From contig NZ_JAJAPB010000009.1 of assembly GCF_026226615.1 (NCBI RefSeq), forward strand, positions 1-64,000: a stretch of DNA of 64,000 nt, in the 5' to 3' direction. Below, one piece after another: positions 97 through 62,441 of this stretch (the stretch's first letter is position 1; each line of letters opens with the position of its first letter). The DNA comes from Geovibrio ferrireducens. GTDB lineage: Bacteria > Chrysiogenota > Deferribacteres > Deferribacterales > Geovibrionaceae. Both the position numbers and the translations under genes were made by a program. Under the pieces are notes generated by a model. That model ran no database searches, had not been told where the DNA came from, and was given only the letters and a program-made list of their open reading frames with translations.

Positions 97-193
97 ATAG
101 TTCAGAGACGGCAAATCCTGTGTTTTTTCCGCACACGCTCGCGGTCTGCAAAGCAGACCTTCGCTTCGCACGGCGCAGTTCCATCCATGGAAC
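97..193 (+). repeat. Structured variable-stem repeat, copy 1
   Basis: Order on the plus strand: box A (97-120, ATAGTTCAGAGACGGCAAAT then CCTG), box B ACACGCTCGCG (133-143), hairpin H1 GTCTGC/GCAGAC with loop AAA (144-158), box C CTTCGCTTCGCACGGCGCA (159-177), hairpin H2 GTTCCAT/ATGGAAC (178-193). Boxes B and C recur nearly unchanged at 8.2, 10.2, 10.4, 20.3 and 49.4 kb while both stems change sequence and remain self-complementary. It lies downstream of the nickel-transporter ATPase gene. The remainder of 1-307 shows no coding sequence. Confidence 0.8.
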
Positions 194-199
194 TGTTTG

Positions 200-8149: not shown

Positions 8150-8187
8150 CTGTCAGATATAAGTTAATGATGGATGAAAGTCAACTT

Positions 8188-8277
8188 AATAGCTGAAACT
8201 GTACATCCTATCAGTTTTAGCCACACGCTCGCGTCGGGATAAACCCGCCTCCGCTTCGCACGGCGCAACTCCAGTTG
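8188..8277 (+). repeat. Structured variable-stem repeat, copy 2
   Basis: H0 hairpin GCTGAAACTG, loop TACATCCTAT, CAGTTTTAGC (8192-8221); box B ACACGCTCGCG (8223-8233); H1 CGGG, loop ATAAA, CCCG (8235-8247); box C variant CTCCGCTTCGCACGGCGCA (8249-8267); H2 CAACT, CC, AGTTG (8266-8277). It is followed at 8289-8326 by a second H0 unit that matches 34 of 38 bases of 8188-8225. It lies just downstream of the phospholipase-like gene. Confidence 0.8.
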
Positions 8278-8288
8278 TATTCCTACTC

Positions 8289-9549: not shown

Positions 9550-10116
9550 ATGAAGCGGATTCTTATAATGCTGGCGGTAGTCATCTCGGTTGCCGCCTGC
9601 GTTACTGTGGGCAAAAAAACCACATCCATGGACGACACGACATACTACACGCAGTACTCCTTCTTCTATAAAGCGGGCATACACAAATCCGCCAATTACC
9701 GCGAAGGAACCCTTGTGCCGATCAACACACCGGTGAAAATACGCTCAATCGGCGGCTATGACCTCACCGGGGACGAATCCTTTGAAATAACCACTGTGGA
9801 CGGAAGGCATAAAATAGTTGTTTCAAACGATAAAGATAACAGTGGAATGAGCCTTACTGACTACCGCGGCAAGCTCTTAGGAAAAGCAAAGGCGGATCTC
9901 TCTGCTTATTCTGAACAGGCACAGGCATTCATCAGAAACGGTGAAGCTGCCAAAGGCATGACCAAGGAGATGATACTCATGGCGCTGGGCACTCCGCCCG
10001 TTGATCTCACCCCTTCGCTGAACAGTGATGCGTGGATCTACCGCCTGAACCTGCTCCAGAAAACATACATAAGCTTTGATGAAAACGGCATGGTAAAGGA
10101 CATTTTCCACAAGTGA
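9550..10116 (+). CDS. Lipoprotein with a BamE/SmpA-like C-terminal domain
   Basis: 188 aa. Lipobox VAAC (cleavage before Cys17) after MKRILIMLAVVISVAAC. The C-terminal third, MTKEMILMALGTPPVDLTPS then WIYRLNLLQKTYISFDENG, has the pattern of OmlA/SmpA (BamE) domains: a helix ending in GxP, a Trp-Tyr strand and a final strand FDENGMV. The N-terminal 100 residues are not part of that fold as I know it. Outer-membrane or periplasmic localisation is likely. True BamE is usually shorter, so this is called BamE-like only. Confidence 0.7.
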   Translation: MKRILIMLAVVISVAACVTVGKKTTSMDDTTYYTQYSFFYKAGIHKSANYREGTLVPINTPVKIRSIGGYDLTGDESFEITTVDGRHKIVVSNDKDNSGMSLTDYRGKLLGKAKADLSAYSEQAQAFIRNGEAAKGMTKEMILMALGTPPVDLTPSLNSDAWIYRLNLLQKTYISFDENGMVKDIFHK

Positions 10117-10137: not shown

Positions 10138-10175
10138 GTGTCACTGCGAGAAGCCGAAGCGACGAAGCAGTCTCT
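10138..10175. repeat. Short dispersed repeat, GTCACTGCGAG...GAAGCAGTCTC type
   Basis: A diverged member of the family seen at 55-86 and 10345-10378, here with GAAGCCGAAGCGAC in the middle in place of the small hairpin. It lies immediately downstream of the BamE-like gene, next to copy 3 of the structured repeat. Confidence 0.55.
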
Positions 10176-10208
10176 AAATATATAACTTCCGTTCGCAATG
10201 ACGCAAAC

Positions 10209-10339
10209 AGTTCCATGGATGGAGTTGCGCCGTGCGAAGCGAAGGACGGTTTATCCGTCCGCGAGCGTGTATAAAAATTCCCAAGGAAGGTGAATTTTTA
10301 TTATTAAGGTAGCAGGATGTACCGTTTCTGAACTATCAT
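10209..10339 (-). repeat. Structured variable-stem repeat, copy 3
   Basis: Written along plus coordinates: H2 AGTTCCAT, GG, ATGGAGTT (10209-10226, closed with two G-T pairs), box C complement TGCGCCGTGCGAAGCGAAG (10226-10244), H1 GGACGG/CCGTCC with loop TTTAT (10244-10260), box B complement (10260-10270), an extra hairpin ATAAAAATTC/GAATTTTTAT (10271-10301), then the box A complement (10313-10339). Copy 4 repeats this order 175 bp further on. Confidence 0.8.
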
Positions 10340-10344
10340 AACGA

Positions 10345-10378
10345 GAGATTGCTTCACCCTTTCAGGGTTCGCAATGAC
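10345..10378. repeat. Short dispersed repeat between copies 3 and 4
   Basis: GAGATTGCTT ... CGCAATGAC with an internal hairpin ACCCT, TTC, AGGGT. Reverse complement relative to the unit at 55-86. Its position between two tandem structured repeats shows the two families travel together. Confidence 0.6.
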
Positions 10379-10383
10379 ATAAA

Positions 10384-10514
10384 CAACTCCATGGAAGGAG
10401 TTGCGCCGTGCGAAGCGAAGGTCAGTTCTGCTGACCGCGAGCGTGTATAAAAATTCCCAAGGATGGTGAATTTTTATTATTAAGTCAGATGCTGTACCGT
10501 TTCTGAACTATCAT
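10384..10514 (-). repeat. Structured variable-stem repeat, copy 4
   Basis: H2 CAACTCC/GGAGTTG with loop ATGGAA (10384-10403), box C complement (10402-10420), H1 GGTCAG/CTGACC with loop TTCTG (10420-10436), box B complement (10436-10446), hairpin ATAAAAATTC/GAATTTTTAT (10447-10477), box A complement (10488-10514). Box A abuts the truA stop codon. H1 differs from copy 3 at most paired positions, yet both are perfectly paired. Confidence 0.8.
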
Positions 10515-11248
10515 CAATAGAATACTTCTTTTAAATACAGCCCGCATGCGGGGGCAGTCATCCCCGCTTTTCTCCTGTCTTTTCCCTGAATGATCTTCTG
10601 TATATCCTCAGGCGCCTGCCCCCGGAAAGCGCCTCTGACAACAGTGCCGGTTATTATGCGTATCATCATGTGCAGAAAGCCGCTGCCGTTTATCTCAAGG
10701 TTTATATAATCACCGTCTTCATAAACCTTTGTATGATAAATGGTTCTTACCGTATTTTCCTTCATCCCCTCCGCAGCGCAGAAGCATGCGAAATCATGCT
10801 CCCCCTCAACAGCCCGCAGAAGCTCACGCATCAGCCCGACATCCGGCCTTTTCTTCAGCCACCATGCCCTGTTCCTGTCCAGAGCGGAGGGTATCCAGCG
10901 CGCCAGAAGTCTGTACATATATGTTTTGCTCACTGCAGACTTCTGAGAGTGGAAATCCTCATGAACATCCTCAGCGGACTTCACTGCGATGTCGCCGGGC
11001 AGCAGAGTATTTATCCCCATGACAAAGCCGTTCAGCGGAATATAGCTTTCTGTGCGGAAATTAAAGACCTGATTCAGGGCATGCACACCCGCATCGGTTC
11101 TGCCGGAGCCGATGGCAAACAGCTTTGTTTTGTACATGGTTTCCAGCGCTTTTTCTATCTCAGCCTGAACAGTGCGGACCTCTTTCTGCGCCTGCCATCC
11201 GCAGAAGTCTGTTCCGTCATATTCCACAATGCATTTCCTGTTATACAT
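10514..11248 (-). CDS. truA: tRNA pseudouridine(38-40) synthase TruA
   Basis: 244 aa from the start at 11248 (MYNRKCIVEYDGTDFCGWQA), chosen because it begins at the family N-terminus; an in-frame start at 11266 would add six residues. The catalytic Asp lies in GSGRTDAGVHALNQV (about residues 48-62). FLHMMIRIITGTV near residue 196 is the C-terminal family motif. It converts U38-U40 of tRNA anticodon arms to pseudouridine. The start overlaps the EcfT stop by 8 nt. Confidence 0.92.
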   Translation of the reverse strand: MYNRKCIVEYDGTDFCGWQAQKEVRTVQAEIEKALETMYKTKLFAIGSGRTDAGVHALNQVFNFRTESYIPLNGFVMGINTLLPGDIAVKSAEDVHEDFHSQKSAVSKTYMYRLLARWIPSALDRNRAWWLKKRPDVGLMRELLRAVEGEHDFACFCAAEGMKENTVRTIYHTKVYEDGDYINLEINGSGFLHMMIRIITGTVVRGAFRGQAPEDIQKIIQGKDRRKAGMTAPACGLYLKEVFY

Positions 11249-11924
11249 AATACCCGCCGACGGCAATAACGATTACAAAAAGAAAGGCAGTATAATCCCC
11301 GTAACGCATATATGGAAGCCTCATTCTCTCCTCAAAGCTGTCAAACATAAGCTGAACAGTCTCCCTTGAATGGCTGAGCGCTTTTTCCGCCAGAGGTGCG
11401 AAAAACTCCTTCACAGAAAAAAGTCTGCCGATGCGCCTTTCACCCTGCGGCCTGAAAAAAGAGAAGAATACCGGAACAAAGCTCAGGGCGCATCCGAGGG
11501 AAACGCTTAAGCCTTTGGCATCGGTGAAGGGGACAACGCGGAGTATGCGGTAAAAAAGTGCCGTCAGGTGCTCTGTTCTGATTAAGAATGTGAGCAGAGA
11601 GGAAAAAAATATAAGAAGCGTCAGCCTGCCCACAATAAACAGGGAATGCCCGCCATCCTTTATACCGAAAAACCAGTGGCTGGCGAAAGATGCTATCAGC
11701 ACAGGGGAAAGAGGGATAAGAGCTTTTAAAAAAAGCAGCGGGTTTATCCTTGAAAAAAGGAGAACAGCGGCAAAAACTCCCCAGAAATAAAACAGGCCGG
11801 AAGAGGATTTCACCGTTCCGGCCGTAATTGTCAATATAATAACAGAAACCGCCTTAACAGCGGGATGCAGCCTGTGCAGGGGGGAATCAGCTTCTATATA
11901 AGAACCGAAAGTTCCGCCAGCCAC
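11241..11924 (-). CDS. Isolated ECF transporter T component (EcfT/CbiQ family)
   Basis: 227 aa membrane protein: hydrophobic helices around residues 22-60, 66-85, 95-115 and 205-225 with the long cytoplasmic region (about 145-200) typical of EcfT. The coupling signature is degenerate: SFEERMRLPYMRYGDY replaces the usual A-R-G arrangement. No ATPase or S component lies beside it; its neighbours are tatA and truA. It may use ATPases encoded elsewhere, or be a diverged family member with another role. Confidence 0.7.
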   Translation of the reverse strand: MAGGTFGSYIEADSPLHRLHPAVKAVSVIILTITAGTVKSSSGLFYFWGVFAAVLLFSRINPLLFLKALIPLSPVLIASFASHWFFGIKDGGHSLFIVGRLTLLIFFSSLLTFLIRTEHLTALFYRILRVVPFTDAKGLSVSLGCALSFVPVFFSFFRPQGERRIGRLFSVKEFFAPLAEKALSHSRETVQLMFDSFEERMRLPYMRYGDYTAFLFVIVIAVGGYYV

Positions 11925-20162: not shown

Positions 20163-20229
20163 AATTAAAAACCCAAAGTCAGTTTTTACTTTCGGGAATA
20201 ATCCGCAGGAGCAAATGAGTTTTTGCGGC

Positions 20230-20361
20230 GCATTCCCTTCCATGGGAATGCTAATCTGTCTTGCCGGAATAATCCGCACATCCTGTCGGATTATTCTACA
20301 CGCTCGCGCCGTGGTAAACACGGCTTCGCTCCGCACGGCGCATTCCCTTCCATGGGAATGC
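20230..20361 (+). repeat. Structured variable-stem repeat, copy 5, with duplicated H2
   Basis: H2 GCATTCCC, loop TTCCAT, GGGAATGC at 20230-20251 and again, identical, at 20340-20361. Between them: H0 GAATAATCCG, loop CACATCCTGT, CGGATTATTC (20267-20296); box B (20298-20308); H1 GCCGTG, loop GTAAA, CACGGC (20308-20324); box C CTTCGCTCCGCACGGCG (20324-20340). The last base of the second H2 is the first base of the ftsK stop codon complement. This is the clearest copy. Confidence 0.85.
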
Positions 20362-22616
20362 TAATCCTTCCTGATAACTTCTCTGGGTTTGGATGTTCCG
20401 TCGGACGGGGCAACTATGCCTTTTTGTTCCATTATTTCGACGATGCGGGCTGCGCGGTTGTAGCCTATGCGCAGGTAGCGCTGTATCATGGATATGGAGG
20501 CGAAGCCCTTCTGTCTGACCAGTTCCAGCGCCTCGAAGTATTTGTCGTCTATTTCCGCTTCGTCTATCTCGTCAAATCCCGCTTCCTCATCCTTTACCAG
20601 ATCCATGTTGTATTCCGGTTCGCCGAGGGTTTTGAGGTGTTCCGTTATCCTGCCGACCTCATCATCACTGACGAAACAGCCGTGGACACGGACAGTTTCG
20701 CTTGTTCCGGGCGGGATGAAGAGGCTGTCGCCCCTGCCGAGGAGGAGTTCCGCGCCGTTGGAATCGATGATTGTTCTGGAATCTATCTTTGATGAAACCT
20801 TAAACGAGAGTCTGGCGGGCATGTTCGCCTTGATGATGCCTGTTATAACGTTAACTGAAGGCCTCTGCGTGGCGAGAATCAGGTGTATGCCCACTGCACG
20901 CGCCATCTGTGCTATGCGGATGATCGACTGCTCCACCTCTTTGCCCGCAACCATCATCAGGTCGGCGAACTCATCCACAACCACTATGAGATAAGGCATT
21001 TTCGGATGTCCGTCAGAGACGGACTTCTGGTTGTAGGAGTCTATATTTCTCACCTTGCTTTCTGCAAGGAGGCTGTAGCGGGATTCCATCTCCTGCACAA
21101 CGTTTTTGAGAACAGTAGCCGCCTTGCGCACATCCACCACAACCGGTGCTGCGAGGTGGGGTATCCCTTCGTATATGCTGAGCTCCACCATTTTCGGGTC
21201 GATCATGACAAACTTCACCATCTGGGGTGATGACTTATACAGAACGGAGCAGATCATGGCGTTCACAGAGACTGATTTGCCGCTGCCTGTTGTGCCCGCT
21301 ATGAGCAGGTGGGGCATTTTTGTAAGGTCTGAGATGTACGGCTTGCCGGAAGCATCCTTCCCCATGGCAAAAGTCAGCGGTGACTGGCTTTCTGCGAATT
21401 TCACTGAAGTGAGCAGTTCGCTCAGCACCACTGATTCCCTGTTCTCGTTGGGAAGCTCTATCCCCACCACGGACTTGCCGGGGATGGGGGCTATTATCCT
21501 CACGCTGAGGGCGCTCATGGCGAGAGCCAGATCATCAGAGAGGTTTGCTATCTTGTTTATTTTGATTCCGGGTGCGGGTTCAAACTCGAAGAGGGTTACC
21601 ACGGGGCCCGGACGTATCTCCCGCACTTTGCCCAGAACGCCGAAATCCTTAAGCTTCTGCTCAAGTATAGCGGCTTTGTGCTTAAGTTCCTCGTCAGATT
21701 CGCCGCGCACCTTGCCGGACGGCTTGTCCAGCAGGCTTAACGGAACATCGTACTTAACGCTTGTCTGCTCCACTGTTTCCTTGGGCTTGATGTCTATACC
21801 GTTTGCGGGAAATGATGCTGGTTCAAATAATTCTTCCTCAGCCTCTTCTGCGGCAGAGAAAACAGGCTCCTCTTCGGGTTCCGCCTGTTTGAAGTACTCA
21901 TCCCCCAGAGGCTTGGTGACAGGCACATAGCCCTCGTCAGGCTCCTCATATATTCCGCCGCCGGAGTTCTCCGCCTCAGCGGTTTCAACTGTACGTCTTG
22001 GGTTGATGAACATTCCTCTGAGCCCTTTGCTCCCTGTTCCTTCCTTAACTCCGGTTTTAACACGGAGAAAGGCCTGTTTCATGTCGCTGAGGGTCACGGC
22101 GAAGAAAACCATAAATGAGATAACAAGCAGGAAAAAGGCAGCAATCATCCCCCCCGCCTTGCCGAGGAGAGAGACAAGAATATCAGACGATGCCTTGCCG
22201 GAGATGCCTCCTGTGTACTGGGATTCGAAGAAAAAGTCATGCCCGCCGAAAAAGCCTGACATGACAGAAAGCAGAAAAACGAAAACCGTCATGGCAATGA
22301 ATGAGTAAACAGCGCTGAAACGCCCTTCCTCCCTGCCGCTTCTCAGCAGATACAGCCTGTACACTGTGCCGGTGAAAAACACAGGGATGCACAAAGCAGC
22401 CCATCCGAAAAAGCTTCCGGCAAGATCCGCAAAATAGGCTCCGCTTTTGCCGAAGAGGTTATTCACTCTCAGCTCATAGTCACTGAAAATTATGTGGGAA
22501 AACGACGGATCGGACGGAGAGTAGGAGTATATGGACAGCGTCAGAAAAATCAGCGCAGCTATGCTCAGCAGAAAAATTATGTCAAGCGGCAGGCTCTTTT
22601 TGCTTTCTACATCCAT
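20361..22616 (-). CDS. ftsK: DNA translocase FtsK/SpoIIIE
   Basis: 751 aa. Four or five N-terminal membrane helices (about residues 12-190), a short acidic linker (200-290), then the hexameric motor with Walker A IAGTTGSGKSVSV (about 438) and Walker B YLIVVVDEFADLMM. The C-terminal gamma winged helix is intact (RIGYNRAARIVEIMEQKGIV), which recognises KOPS-like sequences. Clears chromosome dimers at the septum. The start overlaps the uppP end by 10 nt. Confidence 0.94.
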   Translation of the reverse strand: MDVESKKSLPLDIIFLLSIAALIFLTLSIYSYSPSDPSFSHIIFSDYELRVNNLFGKSGAYFADLAGSFFGWAALCIPVFFTGTVYRLYLLRSGREEGRFSAVYSFIAMTVFVFLLSVMSGFFGGHDFFFESQYTGGISGKASSDILVSLLGKAGGMIAAFFLLVISFMVFFAVTLSDMKQAFLRVKTGVKEGTGSKGLRGMFINPRRTVETAEAENSGGGIYEEPDEGYVPVTKPLGDEYFKQAEPEEEPVFSAAEEAEEELFEPASFPANGIDIKPKETVEQTSVKYDVPLSLLDKPSGKVRGESDEELKHKAAILEQKLKDFGVLGKVREIRPGPVVTLFEFEPAPGIKINKIANLSDDLALAMSALSVRIIAPIPGKSVVGIELPNENRESVVLSELLTSVKFAESQSPLTFAMGKDASGKPYISDLTKMPHLLIAGTTGSGKSVSVNAMICSVLYKSSPQMVKFVMIDPKMVELSIYEGIPHLAAPVVVDVRKAATVLKNVVQEMESRYSLLAESKVRNIDSYNQKSVSDGHPKMPYLIVVVDEFADLMMVAGKEVEQSIIRIAQMARAVGIHLILATQRPSVNVITGIIKANMPARLSFKVSSKIDSRTIIDSNGAELLLGRGDSLFIPPGTSETVRVHGCFVSDDEVGRITEHLKTLGEPEYNMDLVKDEEAGFDEIDEAEIDDKYFEALELVRQKGFASISMIQRYLRIGYNRAARIVEIMEQKGIVAPSDGTSKPREVIRKD

Positions 22617-29989: not shown

Positions 29990-30084
29990 TGATTTATACC
30001 TGCCTTTAAGTGAACTATTGATTATTTTCCGTAAGGGCGGGTAATGCGAAAAGGGTTCTGAGTGAAAAGACCAAAGAAAAACCG

Positions 30085-30170
30085 TTTCCCTACGCCGGCA
30101 TTATCCGGATCAGGTTACGGGGACTCTCTCAGCCTGCCCTTTTTAAACGGCAAGCACCCCCACGGATGTT
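30085..30170 (-). ncRNA. TPP riboswitch (THI element)
   Basis: On the minus strand: GGGGTGC (30163-30157), GGCTGAGAG, CCGTAACCTGATCCGGATAA, then TGCCGGCGTAGGGAAAC ending at 30085. These are the conserved CUGAGA and ACCUGAUC...AAUGCCGGCGnAGGGAA blocks of the thiamine pyrophosphate aptamer. The thiC start is about 95 nt further on; sequestration of its ribosome site is the likely mode, as no clear terminator hairpin with a U-run follows. Confidence 0.95.
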
Positions 30171-30255
30171 GGTTTAATCTACACTCTGATTTGAGCGAAT
30201 GCAAGAATAAGTGAAAGTTTTCTGACAATGGCTTGAAAAAGAAGGCTCGGAACCC

Positions 30256-49302: not shown

Positions 49303-49337
49303 CCTGATAACATCAAACCGAACATCGTGTCTTTACA

Positions 49338-49433
49338 TCCAAAATTTGCCATCCTTGGAAATTTTGGACACACGCTCGCGGGCGGTTGAACCGCCCTTCG
49401 CTCCGCACGGCGAACTCCCATCCTTGGGAGTTC
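49338..49433 (+). repeat. Structured variable-stem repeat, copy 6
   Basis: H0 TCCAAAATTT, loop GCCATCCTTGG, AAATTTTGGA (49338-49368); box B (49370-49380); H1 GGGCGGT, loop TGA, ACCGCCC (49380-49396); box C CTTCGCTCCGCACGGCG (49396-49412); H2 GAACTCCC, loop ATCCTT, GGGAGTTC (49412-49433). All three stems are perfect and differ in sequence from every other copy. Downstream of flgA. Confidence 0.85.
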
Positions 49434-49443
49434 AAGGCTTAAT

Positions 49444-60760: not shown

Positions 60761-62441
60761 ATATCTTAAACTTATTCACCAGCATCTTAAGCTCATCCGC
60801 CTGAATCTGGAGGCTTGAGATTGTTGAAGCCACTTCCTGGAGCGCTGATGAACTCTCCTCAACACCGGAGGCGATCATCTGGGTGCTTTCGTTTATGTTG
60901 TGGATAGCGCCAACCTGCTCCTCCACTGCGGACTGGATTATTTCGTTAACCCTGCTCATTGTGTCCACAGAGGTGACAATGTTTTCAAAGGTGGACTTGG
61001 TATCATTTATTATGTTCACTCCGCCTTCCACCTTATCTCTGGCGTTGCTCATTTCTGTGGAGGCCAGCTTGGCTTCCTTCTGAAGATTCTGGATTATGGA
61101 TGATATTTCGCCTGTGGATGTCTGTGTGCGTTCGGCGAGTTTCCGTACCTCATCAGCCACCACGGCGAATCCGCGTCCGTGCTCTCCGGCTCTTGCCGCC
61201 TCTATTGCCGCATTCAGCGCCAGCAGGTTTGTCTGGTCTGCAATGTCGGTGATAACATTGAGAATATCGCCTATTCTGGAGGAGGATGCCAGCAGCCCTT
61301 CGATGGTTTTACCCAGAGCCTCCACATTGCCTTTAATGACCACCATTTCGTTTACCGCTTCCTGAAGCTTTTTATTGCCCTGAATGGTAAGCGCGTTGGT
61401 CTCCTCAATGTTGTTTCTGCCTTCGTTTATGGAGCCTGAAACCTCTGCGGCGGAGGCCGTCATCTGCTCCGTGGCGCTGGCCACGCCTGAAATCTGCGCC
61501 GCCTGATCATTCATTGTGGTGGAGAGTTCCTCTGTGGAGGCGGCAAGCTGGGTGCTGCTTGAGGCCACTGCATCGGCATTCAGCATCACTGTCTGAATTA
61601 TGTCCCTGAGCTTGCTTATGAACTCATTGAAATATCTGCCGAGTTCACCTACTTCGTCATGGGTGCTCACCGCGATTACCTTTGTGAGGTCTCCCTCCCC
61701 TTCGGCTATTTCTTTCAGGGATGAGGAGACAGAGCGTATGTTGTTGGACACTCTCTTTGAGATATAAAGGGCGGCAGCGATTATGATTCCTATACACACA
61801 ACACTGATCAGTATGAATTTGAAGATGACAGCACCGATTTCTTTTGAGATATTTTCGCGTATTTTAGCCACTTCCTTGTCGATGTCATCGATGTAGAAGC
61901 CGGTTCCCAGTGCCCATCCCCAGTTGCCCAGGGGTACTGAGAAGGAAAGTTTTTTCGCTACGGTTTTTTCCGAAGGCTTGTCCCATAAGTAAACGAGGTA
62001 GCCGCCGCCTGCCTGTGCCTGTTTCACAAGCTCACGTATGAGGAACACCCCTTCCTTATCCTGCACATCCCACATGCTTGTCCCCTCTCTCTGCGGGCTG
62101 GGGGGCAGGAGTATGTTAATTCCGTCGTATGTGTATATGAAGTAGTAGCCGTCAGCACCGTAGAAAAGCTGTCTGATGGTTTCCTTTATCTGCTGCTGAG
62201 CCTCTTCCTGAGTCAGTGAGGTATTCTCCGTAATGTGTTTAACGGAGGTTTTTGCGAGGTCGATATAGTTGCTCAGCTCCGCCTTTTTCAGGTTCATCAT
62301 TGTTGTTTCCACAAGTTCGATCTCTTCGTTCCCCATTTTTCTGATATTGCCGATACTTATAACGGCAAGAATAACCGACAGCAAAATAACTGGAACCACT
62401 GCCGTCAGCAGAATTTTGGAACCGATCTTCAAATTAAACAT
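60759..62441 (-). CDS. Methyl-accepting chemotaxis protein (single Cache)
   Basis: 560 aa from 62441 ([20 protein letters not shown]); starts further upstream add a soluble leader only. N-terminal helix (7-30), periplasmic Cache segment (about 40-190) with [20 protein letters not shown] and [12 protein letters not shown], second helix (about 200-222), HAMP, and the signalling hairpin [21 protein letters not shown]. Ends LVNKFKI without a CheR/CheB pentapeptide. Ligand unknown. Tandem paralogue of the next gene. Confidence 0.92.

Follow-up and report, generated by a model that had tools for sequence, protein, structure and literature searches.

Dispersed three-hairpin elements with GGA loops, candidate CsrA-binding modules, in Geovibrio ferrireducens

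Here, we describe a family of elements of about 102 nt in Geovibrio ferrireducens, each composed of three hairpins (HA, H1 and H3) set on near-invariant linkers. The family is almost certainly one of structured RNAs. Judged from sequence, its members form a dispersed, multi-copy module that is carried, for the most part, at gene 3' ends or between the genes of operons, and the module probably, if by no means surely, binds CsrA, which is a global regulator. The loops of HA and H3 carry the GGA motif, and H1, the middle hairpin, changes fastest between sister species and does so with its pairing kept.

Two element copies beside truA

The window, which is the whole stretch of 64,000 nucleotides that was analysed, contains a gap between an ORF on the + strand (9550-10116) and the truA ORF (- strand, 10514-11266). 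The first of these ORFs has no Pfam match at E<=1e-6, and the label BamE-like is putative. Two unit copies lie in the gap, at 10191-10308 and 10367-10484 (+), and they align without gaps at 89% identity. A covariance model, R1, built from 17 hand-checked copies, places element copy 1 at 10206..10306 (+; 96.5 bits, E 1.9e-18) and element copy 2 at 10382..10482 (+; 97.1 bits, E 1.4e-18). In both copies the order is HA hairpin, linker 1, H1 hairpin, linker 2 and H3 hairpin.

In copy 1, all parts of which are on the + strand, HA (10208..10227) reads CAGTTCC-ATGGAT-GGAGTTG and has an ANGGAN loop; its helix covaries in 33 copies. Linker 1, CGCCGTGCGAAGCGAA (10228..10243), and linker 2, GCGAGCGTGT (10261..10270), both of which are nearly invariant throughout the family, flank H1 (10244..10260; GGACGG-TTTAT-CCGTCC), whose word is also found at the orthologous site of the congener G002. 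Sequence and fold define H3 (10271..10301) as ATAAAAATTC-CC-AAGGAA-GG-T-GAATTTTTAT, with a GGA loop and a bulge on its 3' side. In copy 2, likewise on the + strand, the HA hairpin (10384..10403; CAACTCC-ATGGAA-GGAGTTG) again has an ANGGAN loop, with a 5' arm, CAACTCC, that differs from the CAGTTCC of copy 1. H1 of copy 2 (10420..10436; GGTCAG-TTCTG-CTGACC) is unlike that of copy 1, and H3 (10447..10477) is one loop base apart, so that the two can be written together as ATAAAAATTCCC-AAGGA[A/T]-GGTGAATTTTTAT. Linker 1 (10404..10419) and linker 2 (10437..10446) are identical to those of copy 1, which agrees with an earlier note on this DNA that had reported near-constant linkers with differing H1 (GGACGG vs GGTCAG).

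Compared with dinucleotide shuffles, the folding of copy 1 has a z of -4.2 and that of copy 2 a z of -3.5. The gap copies are thus not due to chance, since they fold far beyond shuffles and the element recurs genome-wide. The minimum-energy fold of copy 1 is an alternative in which HA is paired with H1; it is covariation, and not this single fold, that supports the three-hairpin structure.

The two structured repeats that the earlier note had described in this gap are therefore real, and their tandem spacing holds, although the period is 176 bp and not 175 bp. The two short repeats that it had also listed are present, but they are apparently what is left of the right half of a different H3 type (TGTACCGTTTCTGAACTATCAT, about 10318-10339 and 10493-10514). 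The first remnant (GGTAGCAGGATGTACC...TTTCTGAACTATCAT; about 10308..10339, +) again has AGGA, and the second (TGCTGTACCGTTTCTGAACTATCAT) is found at about 10490..10514 (+); an intact H3 of the remnant's type occurs at loci L016, L025 and L033. A REP-like companion repeat (TGTCACTGCGAG...TTCGCAATGACGC; 10140..10205, +) precedes copy 1, and a companion repeat (GAGATTGCTTCACCCTTTCAGGGTTCGCAATGAC; 10345..10381, +) that also stands beside many other copies precedes copy 2. A REP-like companion repeat (GAGATTGCTTC...GTTCGCAATGAC) is often located 5' of elements.

Family, structure and genomic setting

The earlier note had framed the locus as a recent tandem duplication, a frame that gives way to a dispersed family with 58 places by BLAST in its own genome. 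R1 has at least 150 matches in that genome (G000), at least 134 in G001 and at least 151 in G002, the latter two belonging to the same genus; all element copy counts are lower bounds. Outside the genus, 7 matches were found in G007 and about 10-12 in G003, within the same family, and another family has a few weak, single matches, which are putative only. The G007 elements have the same linkers although the TruA identity is only about 52%, and those of G003, another genus, have the same architecture with altered linkers. A structural cousin is also seen in G003 (L212-L229), in at least 10-12 near-identical copies, with the hairpins GGCTTCC-ATGGAT-GGAAGCC and GGGAAATTC-TCAGGATGAT-GAATTTCCC plus an extra hairpin. 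A longer relative (GGCACAGGATGTGCC CGTGGAGCGCGTACCGCAGCGAATGCGAGGAACGCAAGCG ... AACTGCATGGATGCAGGTT), which has two GGA-loop hairpins and a different middle, is found at L032, L041, L043, L019 and L016. Strong matches to the linker pattern in unrelated genomes were discarded as single chance matches.

The window holds further copies detected with R1, all on the - strand. One (20261..20362; 109.3 bits) begins at the stop codon of an FtsK-like gene (Pfam FtsK); a partial copy stands beside it at 20166-20252, and the orthologous site in G001 is empty. Another, at 49332..49434, has the H1 word GGGCGG. The copy at 8186..8279 is decaying, with HA and H1 damaged, and that at 103..197 has a damaged H3. 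At the G002 site orthologous to the 8.2k copy (C1, ~508.2-509.3k; L234), a stretch of ~1 kb, in which one ORF looks like that of an HNH endonuclease, adjoins a decayed element. Other features of the window are a TPP riboswitch (Rfam RF00059, 65 bits) at 30069-30171 (-), a 21-bp tandem repeat of 2.2 copies at 60763-60808, and a region, ~60.7-63.6k, that cross-matches itself in congeners, which suggests paralogous genes.

In the 17-copy alignment, 23 of the 26 pairs change on both sides. Paired cells amount to 93.4%, against 65% in shuffles, none of 500 of which reaches the observed value, and 34-45% in slid controls. Across 33 copies, HA and H1 are 98% paired. The outermost pair of H1 is almost always G-C, and two more G-C pairs and a tandem G-A may lie under H1, in columns that never vary. 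An excess of G-U over A-C departures (65 vs 26) was dropped as proof of a sense RNA; the linkers have a similar excess of C>T over G>A (59 vs 27).

The loops are more constant in form. The HA hexaloop is A-N-G-G-A-N in three species, with A at 97-98%, the G, G and A at 88-100%, and both N positions free; GGA is present in 82/90, 113/135 and 51/53 HA loops and in 96/106, 142/153 and 50/57 H3 loops of these species. The H3 loops have the form CAGGA(N)G, are mainly ACAGGATGT, the commonest, or CCANGGANGG, and are followed by one unpaired base on the 3' side. The HA/H3 signature is seen in about 90% of recognisable hairpins, and about 10% of units have no GGA in a loop. The loops of H1 (TTTAT, CTTTG and similar) never have the GGA form. 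Among other hairpins, sampled from DNA of the same genome, GGA was found in only 7 of 85 loops, with no enrichment beyond the family in this sample; the GGA loop can thus be considered a property of the element family.

Context was counted in clusters of units on the basis of simple ORF calls. Between co-directional genes, sense clusters outnumber antisense clusters by 33 to 10 in G000 and by 22 to 7 in G002; the clusters in convergent gaps number 13 and 12, and those in divergent gaps 4 and 3, respectively. The median distance from the stop codon of a same-strand upstream gene to the start of the unit is 21 nt, with a pile-up from -3 to +10. The upstream genes are housekeeping genes (FtsK, CheZ, RF-1, ATP synthase gamma and FtsW), and no functional theme was found among them, unlike in a classical regulon. 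In G007, several units closely precede a probable ribosome site and a start codon, and one array of G002 consists of eight units followed by a hairpin resembling an intrinsic terminator. This gene context fits an mRNA-borne element, and the module would be transcribed within the mRNA of the upstream gene.

A location right past stop codons and inside operons, stable stems and housekeeping upstream genes would also suit hairpins that protect or terminate mRNA 3' ends, as REP/BIME do in 3' UTRs, without CsrA being specially involved. That explanation is rather improbable, as it leaves unaccounted for the A-N-G-G-A-N of two of the three loops, in which only N is free, as well as the constant linkers and the sense bias.

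A second alternative is a selfish or mobile intergenic repeat, similar to REP or MITE, whose hairpins act as DNA and whose GGA loops mark recognition by a nuclease or transposase and not by CsrA. The high copy number within one genus only is in line with such a repeat, as are the numerous tandem arrays, the empty orthologous sites in G001 (bamE-like/truA, where no insert is found, and 20.2k) and the copies at contig ends and rearrangement breakpoints. On the other side, the Y1_Tnp transposase (PF01797) has no match in G000, G001 or G002, and the two empty sites inspected show no clear target-site duplication or terminal repeats. Moreover, the arms vary while the loops fit a known RNA-binding consensus, and the units have a sense bias and lie near stop codons. 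A mobile repeat of this kind is unlikely, though it retains some appreciable chance. Rearrangements were seen close to elements: a segment of G000 contig 9, at 77.55-86.07k, beyond the window (L243/L244), has the opposite orientation to that in both congeners, and one of its breakpoints falls at an element array; in G001 a rearrangement point is located at the 49.4k element.

Replacement of the H1 hairpin

The differing H1 words had been taken in the earlier note to imply a fast, pairing-preserving replacement, and the comparison of sister species agrees. G000 and G002 share 26 orthologous sites with flanks about 85% identical, at which the differences per position are 0.26 in the H1 arms, 0.12 in the HA arms, 0.11 in H3, and 0.046 and 0.031 in linkers 1 and 2, the conservation of the linkers being partly due to selection, as the sites were found via the linkers. 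Units within arrays were paired by the likeness of HA and H3, and H1 was used only as a length (12-24 nt). Equal divergence of the linkers, which had been set against the claim, is the opposite of what is found at the 26 sites, where the linkers differ by 3-5%. H1 is indeed the fastest part, but it is not the only one to change, since HA and H3 are also swapped, at fewer sites. At the 15 sites where HA and H3 are conserved, H1 differs by 0.24 and all else by about 0.03-0.04; the H1 arms are identical at 7 of these sites, changed at 3 or more of 12 positions at another 7, and in between at 1. Where H1 is swapped, each of the two hairpins nearly always has its full six pairs.

The more distant G001 has a different H1 at 20 of 20 comparable sites, with 0-2 positions changed in the linkers. 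At the bamE-like/truA site, G002 has three units, all with the H1 word GGACGG of copy 1 and with different H3s. The copy at 49332..49434 has GGCGGG as its H1 at the orthologous G002 site, with the remainder nearly unchanged.

The arms of H1 belong to a small set of words (GCCGTG, GGCGGG, GCCTTG, GGGCGG, GGACGG, GCCGCA and others) that is common to the species. These words have no association with the HA word and essentially none with H3. Of 12 swapped sites, 10 have on at least one side a word that the genome concerned contains at two loci or more. For GGTCAG, the word of copy 2, a second exact occurrence within this linker context was not found in the three congeneric genomes, though GGTCTG, which is common, differs from it by a single pair. 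Most swapped sites can be explained by exchange with other copies, the exact donor of GGTCAG excepted, and cassette exchange between copies is the probable source of H1 change. It explains both the block change and the preference for H1, because only H1 has a unit-wide common sequence on both sides. The turnover would proceed by ectopic gene conversion or by template switching; the linkers are short for a RecA-type exchange, and template switching is an alternative to it.

Inversion, which the earlier note had offered as one possible process, does not account for the change: a turned hairpin keeps both arms and alters only its loop, so GGTCAG cannot be made from GGACGG. A phase-variable invertible element is ruled out in the same way, as arms differ between copies and between orthologues.

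Stepwise compensatory mutation under selection for pairing, with no block replacement, would be expected to leave many intermediates. A few sites are one pair apart (GCCGCT/GCCGCA at L356, and GGTCTG of the pool vs GGTCAG of copy 2). However, the differences over the 26 sites are bimodal (0-2 or 4-10 of 12 arm positions) and disfavour this course. Moreover, words recur at unlinked loci with their loops included, and arrays are homogeneous in their H1 word. We regard stepwise change as quite unlikely to be the main course.

The H1 differences could also be, in part, artefacts of short-read assembly across repeats. The G000 draft consists of 46 contigs, many copies are at contig ends, and one H1, at contig 9:77.2k (GCCGCA...CCCGCC), is chimeric and unpaired; either breaks inside H1 can occur, or this H1 is itself an assembly artefact. 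As a wider explanation, artefacts are very unlikely: G002, which is one contig, has equal H1 variety, swaps are also seen between G001 and G002, and the swapped H1s are self-complementary.

Exchange between copies would make H1 a natural record of paired-sequence replacement, in which orthologous sites of sister species jump by a whole hairpin with pairing intact. For RNA stems, this would mean that a compensatory change may be made in one exchange step rather than in two successive mutations.

CsrA and comparison with known systems

The element loops match the published signature of CsrA/RsmA, including which positions vary freely. SELEX gave the consensus RUACARGGAUGU, the repeat of CsrB reads CAGGA(U/A/C)G (PMC7652899), and high-affinity binding of CsrA/RsmE involves an ANGGAX hexaloop that is closed immediately by a stem (PMC4005645). 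The stems of SELEX winners are short (PMC7652899), whereas those of H3 are long, which is a point against CsrA. The genome has one csrA gene (contig 9:86654-86812, beyond the window; PF02599 match), whose product of 77 aa can be aligned with solved CsrA/RsmE chains and has L4 and R44 conserved. The ORF just 5' of csrA looks, by eye, like fliW. Most csrA-bearing relatives in the order have no element; csrA thus does not require the element, and their joint presence across the order was set aside as uninformative. The GGA-bearing loop could be read by something other than CsrA, but CsrA binding is, as far as loop sequences can tell, the likelier main role of the family.

In such a mechanism, the two GGA hairpins of a unit, about 60-70 nt apart from GGA to GGA, would capture one CsrA dimer. 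Hundreds of sites may jointly buffer or sequester CsrA, mark mRNA ends, or do both, and tandem arrays, such as the eight G002 units with their terminator-like hairpin, would act like CsrB. More tentatively, and with the balance leaning against it, a distributed buffer of several hundred mRNA 3'-end sites may replace a CsrB-type sRNA in this FliW-bearing bacterium, with H1 as an exchangeable cassette that has a small, genus-wide vocabulary and moves independently of the CsrA hairpins. To our knowledge, the sequestration of CsrA by RNAs with numerous GGA hairpins has been established for Gammaproteobacteria alone. If the CsrA reading is true, more than 150 mRNA-borne GGA-hairpin units in a phylum outside that class would suggest that the combined transcription of ordinary genes can set CsrA activity.

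The element matched no Rfam family, including the CsrB/CsrC/Rsm models, and the TwoAYGGAY covariance model (RF01731) gave no match up to E 10. Our literature search found no dispersed CsrA-binding repeats and nothing on Deferribacterota. By the definitions of these families, the element belongs to none of CsrB/Rsm, TwoAYGGAY and REP/RAYT. It resembles REP/BIME in being intergenic and palindromic, with many hairpin copies that frequently occupy 3' UTRs or the gaps within operons; it differs in that its stems vary with covariation while its loops are fixed, and in that its genus is without a Y1/REP transposase. TwoAYGGAY RNA has two AYGGAY-loop hairpins and tandem G-A pairs, and was proposed to bind CsrA outside Gammaproteobacteria (PMC4333381). 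The element shares the two GGA-loop hairpins, and possibly a tandem G-A below H1, but has different linkers, a variable middle hairpin and a very high copy number. In Campylobacter, a FliW-bearing bacterium with no known Csr sRNAs, the flaA mRNA is reported to titrate CsrA and so to act as its antagonist beside FliW (PMC4894983); there, a single abundant mRNA leader is involved, whereas the element is a distributed repeat family. The element shares with CsrB/CsrC and RsmX/Y/Z the repetition of hairpins whose loops read CAGGA(U/A/C)G or ANGGAN (PMC7652899, PMC4005645). Those RNAs, known from Gammaproteobacteria, are one or few stand-alone sRNA genes, whereas the element consists of more than 150 dispersed gene-end units, each with a third, non-GGA hairpin. 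In its anatomy it is alike to a Csr sponge, for which its sequence makes it a candidate.
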